From Oscillibacter sp. (GTDB taxonomy: Bacteria > Bacillota > Clostridia > Oscillospirales > Oscillospiraceae): 64,000 nt of DNA. The notes beneath the pieces are model-generated. The model was not told the DNA's origin and did not search any database. It saw only the letters and a program-made list of their open reading frames with translations. Position 1 is the stretch's first letter, and each line of letters opens with the position of its first letter. Below, piece by piece: positions 58,963 through 63,113 of the stretch. Where the stretch lies: positions 1 to 64,000 of the forward strand of contig JAAVHC010000040.1 in assembly GCA_014799925.1 (NCBI GenBank), read 5' to 3'. Position numbers and translations under genes: made by a program.

Positions 58963-61197
58963 TCAGTTGGGGGTATAATAGACCACAACCGTTGAATCTG
59001 CGGAGCTTGCGGTACCTTCGATCCTCGTCTCCTCCGGCGTATAGCCGTCAATGACCGTGGGGGGGAAGAGGTATGTCGAATCCGAATTGCACAAGTGCCT
59101 GTAGTACCGCAGCACCTGATTGGTCTGCCGGTCCCGGCATTCAATCGTGACGACGGGATTTTCCTGTTTTGCCTGCCTCGTCTTGTCGGAGAGCAGATTC
59201 ATCATCCGTACCAGCACCACGCAGGCCTGGGCGCGGGTCATGTTCTCCTCCCCGTGGAAGCACCCGTCCTCCATGCCGGTGAGGATGCCGTAGTAATAGC
59301 AGACGGGAACCTCCGCCCGATAGAGCTGGTACCAGTTGGACTGCGGGAACTGATCATAATCCTTGATGGAGGAATTGTTTTCGTATGGATTGTAAGTCGG
59401 ATTCTCGTTTGAGGGGTTTGTGCCATACCGAAGCAGCGTCTGGCGGGCGATGGCGGCCATGTCGTAGCGGTTGATGGGGGTGTCGGCCACCACCACCTCG
59501 GGCCAGCCGCCGTACTTGCGGATATTTGAAAAGAGATCCAGCTTGTACGAAAACGCGGTCTGCATATTGGGGTAGTACCAGGGCTTCCCGGTGGTATCAG
59601 TGACCTTCTGGACCTCGTCGTTGAAGAAGGCTCTGGTGATCATGGCGACGAACTGCGCGTAGCTCACCGTGCCATCCGGGTCAAACCTCCCGTCGCCCAC
59701 GCCGTTGACGATCCCCTTCTCCACGCAGGTCCGGATGTAGTCCAGGGCCCAGTGGTTGTCGGCCACGTCCTTGAAGGGGCTGGGCGTGCTGGGGGTGGAC
59801 GTGCTGGGAGTGGACGCGCCGCTGGCGGCGTCGATGGCGGTCAGGCCGGAGGCGTCCAGCGTATAGAAGATGAGCTTGTCGGAACGGTTCGCGTACCAGA
59901 CCACCTTGCCATTGAAGTAAATGGGCTGGCAGTCGGACAGCTTGCCGGAGCCCGTCCGGATCGTGCCGGTCTGTCCGCTGGCGTCATAGGTGGTCCAGCT
60001 GATCTCCCCCCTGGCGGACTTCCAGATAATGTAGCCGCCGGAGAGGCTGGTGGGAACCACAAACGGGTTGCCCTGGTCGGGGTCGGTGTTCGGATCCCAG
60101 TTCATCAGGTCGGCCTTGGCGTTGGTGATCTGCCGGACCTGGAAGTAACTTAATTCCCCGCCGCCGGTCCCCGCGACAGTCAGTTTAATGTCTTTTTTCG
60201 CGATATAGGCGAGCTTGACCTGATACAGGTCGCCGAGGGCCGCGGAGGGCTCCTGCGTATAGGCCAGCAGATACCCGTTGGTGGTCTCCGCCATGCCGCC
60301 CAGCATCGCGCCGGTGTAGTTGAAGCCGGTCTTACCGGGAAATTCAGGGGTCAGCACATCTCCAAAACGGTCGCCGTCGTTCCAGTCCTTACGGATGTCG
60401 GCCTCCCTTATATCTGTATTGGGACGCTCCCTCCTGCCTCCGTCTACCAGCATCTCCATCTCTATTGCCCGTGGGTAGGCGTCTCCATGGTTTGCCGTGA
60501 TGAAGTTCCCCTGGGAATCCACCATGATGAGCTGATTGAAGGAGTGGGACACACGACCGATGAAGCCGCCGTCGCAGTTTGTTTCCGTGACCGTCATATC
60601 GCTTTCCCGGATCGTGATCTGCATACTGGCCTGGTGGTTTTTGCCGTCGCTGCTCTTATACATCTCGTGGCAGGTGAGGATATGCAGGATGCCGTTGGAC
60701 TCCGCGCAGCTCACCGTGCCGGCGTCGAACGGTTTATAAGTATTTGCTCCATAGACGCTGGCCTTCCCCAGATACTGCCAGTCCTTGCTGTACTTGAGGA
60801 CCCGGATCACCTCCACGCTGTCGGATTCGTTGGGGTTATTCTGCCCGGTGATGATGAAGTTGTAGTTTTCTCCGGCGTAGAACCCGCCCCAGACAGGCAG
60901 GCCGTCGTATGTGATATACTTACCGGACAGGAACCTGAACGAGCGGTCGTATTCCTCCACCCGGAGTTGGTTCGTCGTGTCGTAGCCGGGAGCCTCCACG
61001 CGGGTCAGCCCGCCCTTTGCGTTGGCATACAAGAAGAATTTCGTGGTAGCTGCCCAATAGCTGGAATACTCGTGAGAAGGGTTGTGGGATATGCTGGGTC
61101 CCGCGTCTGAGCTCCCCGACGCGAGGGCGGGAGCGCAGAGAGAAACGCTCAGCACAAGGGCAAGGACCAGGGATAAAACGCGCGGTGGTTTTTTCAT
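58963..61197 (-). CDS. Large secreted SLH-domain protein with MucBP-like end
   Basis: A 744-residue exported protein. The signal peptide covers about residues 1-27 (LVLALVLSVSLCAPALA). The N-terminal ~450 residues are beta-rich with repeated aromatic and Gly-Asn-Asp segments; I do not recognise the domain, though propeller-like repeats are possible. A low-complexity Thr/Ser/Pro linker near 475 is followed by SLH motifs (FKDVADNHWALDYIRTCVEKG; GILTGMEDGCFHGEENMTRA). The last ~65 residues resemble a MucBP-type beta domain with VIDGYTPEETRIEG and VVVYYTPN. It probably sits on the SLH layer and binds something external. The ATG at 61197 has GGAGAGG upstream. A structured leader precedes it. Confidence 0.75.
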   Translation of the reverse strand: MKKPPRVLSLVLALVLSVSLCAPALASGSSDAGPSISHNPSHEYSSYWAATTKFFLYANAKGGLTRVEAPGYDTTNQLRVEEYDRSFRFLSGKYITYDGLPVWGGFYAGENYNFIITGQNNPNESDSVEVIRVLKYSKDWQYLGKASVYGANTYKPFDAGTVSCAESNGILHILTCHEMYKSSDGKNHQASMQITIRESDMTVTETNCDGGFIGRVSHSFNQLIMVDSQGNFITANHGDAYPRAIEMEMLVDGGRRERPNTDIREADIRKDWNDGDRFGDVLTPEFPGKTGFNYTGAMLGGMAETTNGYLLAYTQEPSAALGDLYQVKLAYIAKKDIKLTVAGTGGGELSYFQVRQITNAKADLMNWDPNTDPDQGNPFVVPTSLSGGYIIWKSARGEISWTTYDASGQTGTIRTGSGKLSDCQPIYFNGKVVWYANRSDKLIFYTLDASGLTAIDAASGASTPSTSTPSTPSPFKDVADNHWALDYIRTCVEKGIVNGVGDGRFDPDGTVSYAQFVAMITRAFFNDEVQKVTDTTGKPWYYPNMQTAFSYKLDLFSNIRKYGGWPEVVVADTPINRYDMAAIARQTLLRYGTNPSNENPTYNPYENNSSIKDYDQFPQSNWYQLYRAEVPVCYYYGILTGMEDGCFHGEENMTRAQACVVLVRMMNLLSDKTRQAKQENPVVTIECRDRQTNQVLRYYRHLCNSDSTYLFPPTVIDGYTPEETRIEGTASSADSTVVVYYTPN

Positions 61198-61226
61198 GGT
61201 GATACCTCTCCATTTCATAAATTTCC

Positions 61227-61285
61227 CGACGGTGCAGACCCTGGGGGCGGCGCTCTGTTCCCATCCCCCGTGGGCCTCCCCGTCG
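61227..61285 (-). ncRNA. Folded leader segment before the SLH/MucBP gene
   Basis: CGACGG and CCGTCG close a fold with two further nested pairings (GGCCC with GGGTC, GGGGG with CCCCC) about 30-90 bases before the ATG. It lies just after the terminator of the RNA at 61291-61492. I do not recognise a riboswitch class; it may simply be GC-rich leader sequence. Confidence 0.35.
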
Positions 61286-61290
61286 AGACA

Positions 61291-61492
61291 ACAAAAGCGG
61301 CGCAGGGCAAATAATCCCTACACCGCCGGAAGCTACGCACACGCCTATCCGATTCCCCTCTTGTAAATTAGGGGGAAAGCTGTTAGAATAGTTTCGGCGC
61401 AGTAATCTGCTGTGTGGGAGGCCTTTTCTCCTGCATAGGGGCTGGCAGTATTCGCGGTACTTCCAGCCCTGCCTTTTGCTTCTGTGTCTCGC
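61291..61492 (-). ncRNA. Unassigned structured RNA of ~200 nt with its own promoter and terminator
   Basis: The predicted transcript starts about seven bases after the TACAAT box and ends at a strong terminator. Inside are a long hairpin built on GGGCTGG/CCAGCCC with an inner AGTA/TACT extension, a GCAG/CTGC hairpin and TTCCCC/GGGGAA. The end is an 11-bp stem (two G-U pairs) at 61297-61326 followed by TTTTGTT. The size resembles 6S RNA, but I could not build the 6S rod-like fold. It could be a free small RNA or an attenuating leader of the SLH/MucBP gene. Confidence 0.6.
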
Positions 61493-61498
61493 AGATTC

Positions 61499-61527
61499 AT
61501 TGTACCGCATATTCTGGAAGATTGCAA
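61499..61527 (-). promoter_or_regulatory. Promoter of the structured RNA
   Basis: TTGCAA and TACAAT are 17 bases apart on the minus strand, within a gap without genes. This is a strong sigma-A match. Confidence 0.7.
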
Positions 61528-61572
61528 GGGCGATTTCGACACAACTTCATTTTCGCTCGCTGTACGGCCGGC

Positions 61573-61634
61573 GCGGCGGTGAAGCAGCCCCGGATTGTAT
61601 TTTCATACAGTCCGGGGCTGTCTGCGTCCGCCGC
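61573..61634. repeat. Composite hairpin upstream of the pfk gene
   Basis: An outer GCGGCGG/CCGCCGC stem surrounds a 16-base near-perfect inner stem starting CAGCCCCGGA, with a TTTC loop at 61601-61604. It is about 150 bases before the pfk promoter. Neither strand has an adjacent gene end that needs a terminator. Together with the RNA gene, it is the main content of the 683-base gap 61198-61880. Confidence 0.65.
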
Positions 61635-61784
61635 TGTAAGAAGCGGGACCTTTTCCGAGTGTGAATAAATGACATTGCCGCCTGCCGCTCCTCTTTTACC
61701 CGCGTGAAGCGTTGGAGGGTCCGCTTTTGGCGTTTTTTACACCCGGCATCCGCAAACAGACGCCGCTTCCATGCAAAAAATCTG

Positions 61785-61813
61785 TTTACAACCATGGAAA
61801 ATCTTGCTATACT
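61785..61813 (+). promoter_or_regulatory. pfk promoter
   Basis: TTTACA and TATACT are 17 bases apart, about 67 bases before the pfk ATG. Confidence 0.7.
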
Positions 61814-61880
61814 AAAGACAGAGCGTCACTTTACAAAAAGGAAAACTCTTCATGCTGAAGAAATGGGAGGAATACAAACT

Positions 61881-63113
61881 ATGTTAAAAGGCGCATGTAT
61901 CATCGGTCAGTCCGGCGGCCCCACTTCCGTCATCAACGCCAGCGCTTACGGCGTGATCCGCACCGCTCTGGACAGCGAGGCCATCACCAAGGTCTACGGC
62001 GCGGCCCACGGCATCAAGGGCGTACTGGGCGACCAGCTCTACGACATGACCCAGGAGGATGCCGGTGAGCTGGAGAACCTGCTCTATACCCCCTCCTCCG
62101 CCCTGGGCTCCTGCCGGTACAAGATCGCGGATCCCGACGCGGACGACACCGATTATAAGCGCATCCTGGAGATCTTCAGGAAGTACGACGTCCGTTACTT
62201 CTTCTACAACGGCGGCAACGACTCCATGGACACCTGCAACAAGATCAGCAAGTATATGCAGAAGGTGGGCTACGAGTGCCGTGTCATGGGCGTGCCCAAG
62301 ACCATCGACAATGATCTGTTCGGCACGGACCACTGCCCCGGCTTCGCCTCCGCCGCCAAGTATATCGCGACAAGCTGCATGGAGGTCTACCACGACGTCC
62401 GTGTGTATGACACCGGCATGATCTGCATCGTCGAGATCATGGGCCGCCACGCCGGATGGCTCACCGCCGCCGCCGGGCTGGCCACCGCTATGGGCGCGGG
62501 TCCCGACCTCATCTATCTGCCTGAGACCGACTTCGACATGGATAAGTTCATCGCCGAGGTGAAGAAGGTCTATGCCGAGCGCGGCAACTGCATGGTGGCC
62601 GTGTCCGAGGGCATCCACTACGCCGACGGCTCCTTCGTTTCCGAGGCCAAGACCTCCGCCACCGACGGCTTCGGTCACGCCCAGCTGGGCGGTCTGGCCG
62701 CCATGCTGGCCGACATCGTCAAGAAGGAGACCGGCGCAAAGGTTCGCGGCATCGAGCTGAGCCTGCTCCAGCGCTGCGGCGCGCATCTGGCTTCCCAGAC
62801 CGATATCGACGAGTCCTTCATGGCCGGCAAGGCCGCCGTGGAGAACGCCGTGGCGGGCCTCACCGACAAGATGGTGGGCTTTGAGCGCTGCATCGAGGAT
62901 GGCAAGTACGTCTGCAAGACCAAGCTGTTCAATCTCACCGACGTGGCCAACACGGAGAAGAAGGTCCCCCTCGAGTGGATCAACGCCGACCATAACGGCA
63001 TCGAGCAGGCCTTCGTGGACTACGCCCTCCCCCTCATTCAGGGCGAGACCAAGATGAAGAAGGAAAACGGCCTGCCCCGCTTTGCCAAGCTGAAGAAGGT
63101 CATCGCAAAGTAA
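61881..63113 (+). CDS. PPi-type 6-phosphofructokinase
   Basis: A 410-residue phosphofructokinase. GQSGGPTSVINA at 9-20 is the phosphate loop, GGNDSMDTC near 110 replaces the GGDGS of ATP enzymes, and PKTIDNDLFGTDH near 138 has the lysine typical of pyrophosphate-dependent enzymes (ATP enzymes have PGTIDND). IMGRHAGWL near 192 and the longer C-terminus also fit the PPi class. It would phosphorylate fructose 6-phosphate reversibly using PPi, an energy saving in fermenting bacteria. The start is ATG 61881 with GGGAGGA upstream; the frame is open further 5' but without signals. Codons are strongly C-ending, as in fba, suggesting high expression. Confidence 0.9.
   Translation: MLKGACIIGQSGGPTSVINASAYGVIRTALDSEAITKVYGAAHGIKGVLGDQLYDMTQEDAGELENLLYTPSSALGSCRYKIADPDADDTDYKRILEIFRKYDVRYFFYNGGNDSMDTCNKISKYMQKVGYECRVMGVPKTIDNDLFGTDHCPGFASAAKYIATSCMEVYHDVRVYDTGMICIVEIMGRHAGWLTAAAGLATAMGAGPDLIYLPETDFDMDKFIAEVKKVYAERGNCMVAVSEGIHYADGSFVSEAKTSATDGFGHAQLGGLAAMLADIVKKETGAKVRGIELSLLQRCGAHLASQTDIDESFMAGKAAVENAVAGLTDKMVGFERCIEDGKYVCKTKLFNLTDVANTEKKVPLEWINADHNGIEQAFVDYALPLIQGETKMKKENGLPRFAKLKKVIAK

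Follow-up and report, generated by a model that had tools for sequence, protein, structure and literature searches.

To our knowledge, transcription attenuation by antisense RNA has been described at a handful of single loci, mainly plasmid-borne. In the Staphylococcus aureus plasmid pT181, an 87-nt antisense RNA (RNAI) is counter-transcribed within the untranslated leader of repC, and when this RNA is absent a pre-emptor base-pairs with the terminator's 5' arm, acting during transcription (PMC5703833). In pIP501, RNAIII and repR form a related arrangement in which an antisense-induced terminator lies in a long leader and the antisense promoter sits midway (PMC5703833), and in Shigella the antisense RNA RnaG attenuates the surface-protein gene icsA through kissing loops and an antiterminator structure (PMC5394118). 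Engineered pT181 attenuators have been made into orthogonal sets, independent of one another via changed antisense hairpins and loops, and the lack of natural attenuators has been named a roadblock in synthetic biology (PMC3753616).

We analysed a window of 64,000 nt from Oscillibacter sp. (assembly GCA_014799925.1, contig JAAVHC010000040.1), in which a sequence-only reading of positions 61291-61527 had proposed an RNA upstream of a surface-protein gene that might be a stand-alone, 6S-sized small RNA, a new attenuator or a riboswitch. Comparison of this sequence with its relatives indicates that the locus is probably a chromosomal antisense-RNA transcription attenuator with pT181-type anatomy. 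As in pT181, a terminator lies between promoter and gene, an antisense promoter and an antisense terminator are present, a pre-emptor falls within the stretch that the antisense RNA would cover, and that RNA is short (~86 nt predicted here versus 87 nt). Whereas pT181 is a single-copy arrangement on a plasmid that serves a rep gene and copy-number control, the unit described here is chromosomal, occurs as multiple paralogues and stands before exported-protein genes. With pIP501 RNAIII/repR it would share the arrangement of an antisense-induced terminator, and its antisense promoter likewise lies inside the leader, although the pIP501 system belongs to plasmid replication control and includes the Cop repressor. 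RnaG/icsA resembles it in placing antisense attenuation and an antiterminator before a surface-protein gene, but is a single virulence-plasmid locus with a 450-nt antisense RNA, relief by VirF and no paralogue family. As location, genes, copy number and sequence all differ, the unit is not filed with any of these three systems. Its features in the window are as follows.

61499..61527, minus strand: leader (forward) promoter, -35 TTGCAA at 61527-61522, 17-bp spacer, -10 TACAAT at 61504-61499, predicted start at ~61492
61290..61492, minus strand: leader RNA if terminated, ~203 nt, predicted from the promoter and terminator positions
61439..61469, plus strand: P1 hairpin, the antisense terminator hairpin, with a hypervariable 7-nt loop, then TGCCTTTTGC
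61417..61431, plus strand: P2 hairpin, core GGAG/CTCC, hypervariable loop at 61421-61427, helix extended on the antisense strand
61412..61419, minus strand: segment A, putative antiterminator (pre-emptor) TCCCACAC, pairing with D
61396..61402, minus strand: segment B, CTGCGCC, the 3' half of P3 and alternative partner of C' (GCGTAG, 61338-61333)
61361..61389, plus strand: antisense promoter inside the leader, -35 TTGTAA at 61361-61366, 17-bp spacer, -10 TAGAAT at 61384-61389
61396..61481, plus strand: predicted antisense RNA of ~86 nt with three GGC/GCC-closed hairpins, its 5' end complementary to leader segment B
61297..61326, minus strand: leader terminator, D GCGGTGTAGGG at 61326-61316 and D' CCCTGCGCCGC at 61307-61297, then TTTTGTTGT
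61224..61288, minus strand: post-terminator stem in the read-through mRNA, TCTCGACGG at 61288-61280 with CCGTCGGGA at 61232-61224
58963..61197, minus strand: predicted controlled gene, a secreted 744-aa SLH-domain protein, ATG at 61197, SD TGGAGAG at 61212-61206

A consensus scan of positions 60000-63000 returned three promoter-like sites versus 1.5 in shuffles and four terminator-like sites versus 2.4, so barely above the shuffles that one-sequence evidence for the promoter and terminator would be weak. Their reality, as far as sequence can speak to it, is confirmed by conservation across copies, for the ~240-bp unit recurs as a family of repeats. Searching at the DNA level gave seven copies in its own genome and others in genomes of the same genus, and a covariance model built from 55 copies found 14 in its own genome, with copies in 86 of the 300 genomes and 45 of the 106 genera sampled from the source's bacterial family, in 33/295 genomes sampled from the order and in 7/398 from the phylum. 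A GTDB pattern scan located at least 115 stretches, mostly in Oscillospiraceae and including the isolates Flavonifractor sp. An82 and An10, and paralogues number up to 18 or more per genome. The leader promoter TTGCAA-17-TACAAT, placed on the minus strand as in the earlier reading, keeps its 17-bp spacing in 120 of 129 distinct copies, and the intrinsic terminator which that reading had called recurs in 113 of the 129, the missing ones being mostly at contig ends or in truncated copies. That reading had overlooked both the other copies of the unit and the promoter on the opposite strand, which carries -10 TATAAT in 117/129 copies, -35 TTG in all, and a spacer of exactly 17 bp in 128/129 (27/30 in diverged members). 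A second sequence class in the window's own genome (L157-L160; G000:C44, C62, C69, C59), with P2 GAGTG..CACTC and CTCAGCAC as segment A, has the same architecture with signal-peptide genes downstream.

The leader and antisense promoters face each other ~100 bp apart in every copy, a geometry that would also suit regulation by convergent transcription, in which colliding polymerases act without RNA pairing; we consider this very improbable, as it gives no reason for the fold and terminator of the antisense RNA, for the divergence of the loops or for the covariation of the A:D pairing. The predicted antisense RNA folds at -41.8 kcal/mol and ends in P1 and a T-run, and across 55 sequences 98.4% of cells were paired with 119 double changes, compared with 29.6 after shuffling and 10-21 in slid structures. 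On the leader side, where the internal hairpins of the earlier reading were recovered as P1, P2 and P3 downstream of the promoter, a 205-nt RNA folded better than 200 of 200 shuffles (z -3.7). The strand on which each helix is selected can be read from wobble pairs, since a helix selected as RNA can keep G-U pairs on the strand that is transcribed, and these read as A-C on the opposite strand. The 12-bp P1 helix has 208 A-C on the sense strand (G-U on the antisense strand) versus 3 G-U on sense across 129 copies and is therefore selected as antisense RNA, while the leader terminator helix has 99 G-U on sense versus 6 A-C (53 sequences) and is therefore selected as sense RNA; functional RNA thus appears to be made from both strands of the unit. 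The post-terminator stem, kept in 103/103 copies with room, is likewise under sense-strand selection to judge from 136 G-U versus 35 A-C. In the window (61224-61288) and its relatives, mRNA stability or translation control are possible roles for this stem.

The pairing that would hold the terminator open was sought in leaders cut inside the terminator loop. When these were folded, segment A (TCC[C/T]ACAC) paired with D at a probability of at least 0.5 in 102 of 113, yet with A shuffled as a control 57/113 still formed the pairing, which makes folding by itself modest evidence. Among close relatives neither A nor D varies much, and the pairing there rests on complementarity, the TCCT class of A always occurring with D GTGTGGG (17/17). 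Joint changes in the two segments are seen among 26 diverged members (CTCAGCAC with GTGTTGGG, CACTCAACAC with GTGTTGAGTG and CCATACAC with GTGTATGG, for example), and none of 2000 permutations gave a mean duplex as strong as the cognate A:D pairing of these members. Covariation in relatives, on which the earlier proposal had been made to depend, is thus found both in the antisense fold and between A and D. A competes with D' for D, which makes A:D and D:D' mutually exclusive. Pairing of B with D as the antiterminator was rejected, its median probability being ~0 in the truncated leaders, in which A pairs with D instead. The full leader at equilibrium forms the terminator with a median probability of 0.91 (0.74 for the window copy), rising to 0.99 (0.95 for the window copy) with the 5' part of the leader blocked; because the terminator is already favoured at equilibrium, antitermination must be kinetic and occur during transcription. 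The predicted antisense start lies opposite segment B, which is 5-8 nt, nearly always 6-8, from the reverse -10 in 129/129 copies, and the antiterminator falls within the region that this RNA would mask, namely P1, P2, A and B. By masking A and B, the bound antisense RNA should release D to form the terminator.

Divergence among paralogues is concentrated in the loops of P1 and P2. In 16 near-identical copies of the JAAWQS genome (G007), which precede a 60-aa ORF and not surface-protein genes, we counted 0.44 differences per site for the loop of P1 and 0.68 for that of P2, compared with 0.025-0.037 in the flanks and the P1 stem. Both loops were shared by two copies of one genome in 0 of 242 pairs, and the loops are all different among copies of other multi-copy genomes as well. 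Such divergence is what one would predict for antisense RNAs that each have to recognise only the leader of their own copy, and would fit paralogues that act as insulated parallel switches. YUNR is a common motif of antisense recognition loops; the loops of the unit show no enrichment for it. In the JAAWQS genome, L021, L087, L121, L124 and L137 are near-identical copies before the ~60-aa ORF (MVDYKKMYLTMFNATEDAINALENVRQ...), which has its own terminator; many JAAWQS contigs break at this cassette, which looks recently amplified, and its protein gave no convincing Pfam or PHROG match.

The loops also bear on whether the leader is instead a ligand- or protein-sensing, riboswitch-like attenuator with the reverse promoter as a minor or regulatory extra. 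An alternative antiterminator/terminator leader before functionally related genes is what such a sensor would offer, but a ligand pocket common to the paralogues would not give hypervariable loops, and the 17-bp reverse promoter (128/129) and the antisense selection of P1 would be left unexplained. Because the two antisense loops vary most and the counter-transcribed RNA is conserved in promoter, fold and terminator, we disfavour the riboswitch of the earlier reading and hold a sensor of this kind to be quite improbable, a judgement to which the lack of an Rfam match adds, though a protein or ligand input to the unit may yet play a part.

The genes downstream are mostly of one kind. In the window, the ~95-nt gap between terminator and gene start given by the earlier reading holds (ATG 61197), and of its SLH/MucBP assignment the SLH part is supported by Pfam while MucBP has no Pfam match at E<=1e-3. 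Across the family, a gene with a signal peptide or lipobox, as called by a simple hydrophobicity rule and not by a dedicated predictor, begins 82-158 nt after the terminator in 80 of 102 copies with room. Domains in 68 such proteins include BspA-type LRR (24), SLH (13), fibronectin-like (8-13), transglutaminase (5) and copper amine oxidase N-terminal (4), and lipoproteins are also among the exported products. In the window's own genome 11 of 14 copies precede a signal-peptide gene by reading, the exceptions being L023, which has lost a terminator arm, the degenerate L156, and L155 without a clear gene; further exceptions include genes resembling AMP-binding synthetases and, in G007, the 60-aa ORF. 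The former are preceded by the unit at L057, L101, L138 and L143, where the proteins start MTGYPS(I/V)DKPWLKYY or are diverged relatives, and look like AMP-binding synthetases, not surface proteins. A blastn search of the unit against 72,556 plasmids and 50,697 phages gave no match, and in view of this result and of the exported-protein genes the unit, which would work like pT181, is not filed as a member of that plasmid family. One G007-type copy, in which the sense terminator part is replaced by other sequence, lies on an IMG/VR contig filed as viral (L146, IMGVR_UViG_3300035326_000454).

This gene context also weighs on the possibility that the plus-strand RNA acts chiefly in trans, as a small RNA whose two variable loops recognise other mRNAs, the leader side being incidental. 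The antisense RNA is indeed well folded, with four conserved helices, its own promoter and terminator and strongly varying loops, and some copies (L023) keep the antisense part without a sense terminator. We nevertheless judge this unlikely: conservation of the antisense part extends to the promoter, terminator and antiterminator of the leader, whose terminator is selected on the sense strand, and the distance to the signal-peptide gene downstream is fixed. A stand-alone RNA of the 6S kind, for which the ~200-nt length, promoter and terminator would speak, has next to no probability, given the many paralogues per genome, the coupling to downstream genes and the lack of a 6S match. The Rfam search that the earlier reading had suggested for the minus strand, only one of the two strands that matter, gave no match, and at gathering thresholds Rfam 15 matched no part of the unit, 6S and curated riboswitch models included; in 17 relatives it returned only a tRNA. 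A permissive scan yielded only chance microRNA and snoRNA matches, mostly on an unrelated inverted repeat (61568-61637). This long, near-perfect repeat upstream of the leader promoter (GCAGCCCCGGATTGTATTTTCATACAGTCCGGGGCTG within GGCGG..CCGCC) is possibly a two-way terminator, yet no long T-run follows it on either strand. A type I toxin-antitoxin was rejected, as the aligned leaders, read by eye, have no conserved ORF; the frames that begin at the ATG in CCCTATGCAGGA are short, not conserved and not hydrophobic, unlike a small hydrophobic toxin. The earlier interpretation as a whole is thus partly supported, its proposal of a new attenuator of a surface protein being strengthened by the recurrence of the unit, with a terminator and a covarying antiterminator, before exported-protein genes.

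We infer that the cell makes both RNAs of this probable attenuator, that the two bind to each other and thereby bring about termination, and that paralogues are insulated from one another. Polymerase would start at the leader promoter, and in the nascent leader A (TCCCACAC) would pair with D once D emerges, inside a long nested hairpin; with D held by A, D' would be left without a partner, and transcription would read through into the surface-protein gene. The ~86-nt counter-transcribed RNA, starting exactly opposite B, would meet the leader through the two variable loops and then cover P1, P2, A and B, whereupon the freed D could form D:D' and transcription would stop ~95 nt before the start codon. 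Since every paralogue has loops of its own, its antisense RNA should act on the leader of that same paralogue.

No earlier description of the unit family was found in the freely readable literature searched; a human-microbiome survey that reports unnamed candidate RNAs in their thousands may include the unit in its supplements (PMC8040213). Where the engineered pT181 sets are laboratory-designed, this family is apparently a natural set, and offers synthetic biology over a hundred candidate attenuators. With loops that diverge ~15-20x faster than the flanks among paralogues, the family allows direct tests of how RNA-RNA specificity evolves. On balance we lean towards an expanded set in which up to about 18 genes per cell, mostly for surface or exported proteins, would each be under a private RNA switch; if true, the set would be naturally orthogonal and might let gut bacteria switch their surface proteins individually. 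Antisense attenuation would here form a widespread chromosomal regulon class, absent from Rfam 15, that may control surface display in abundant gut bacteria.
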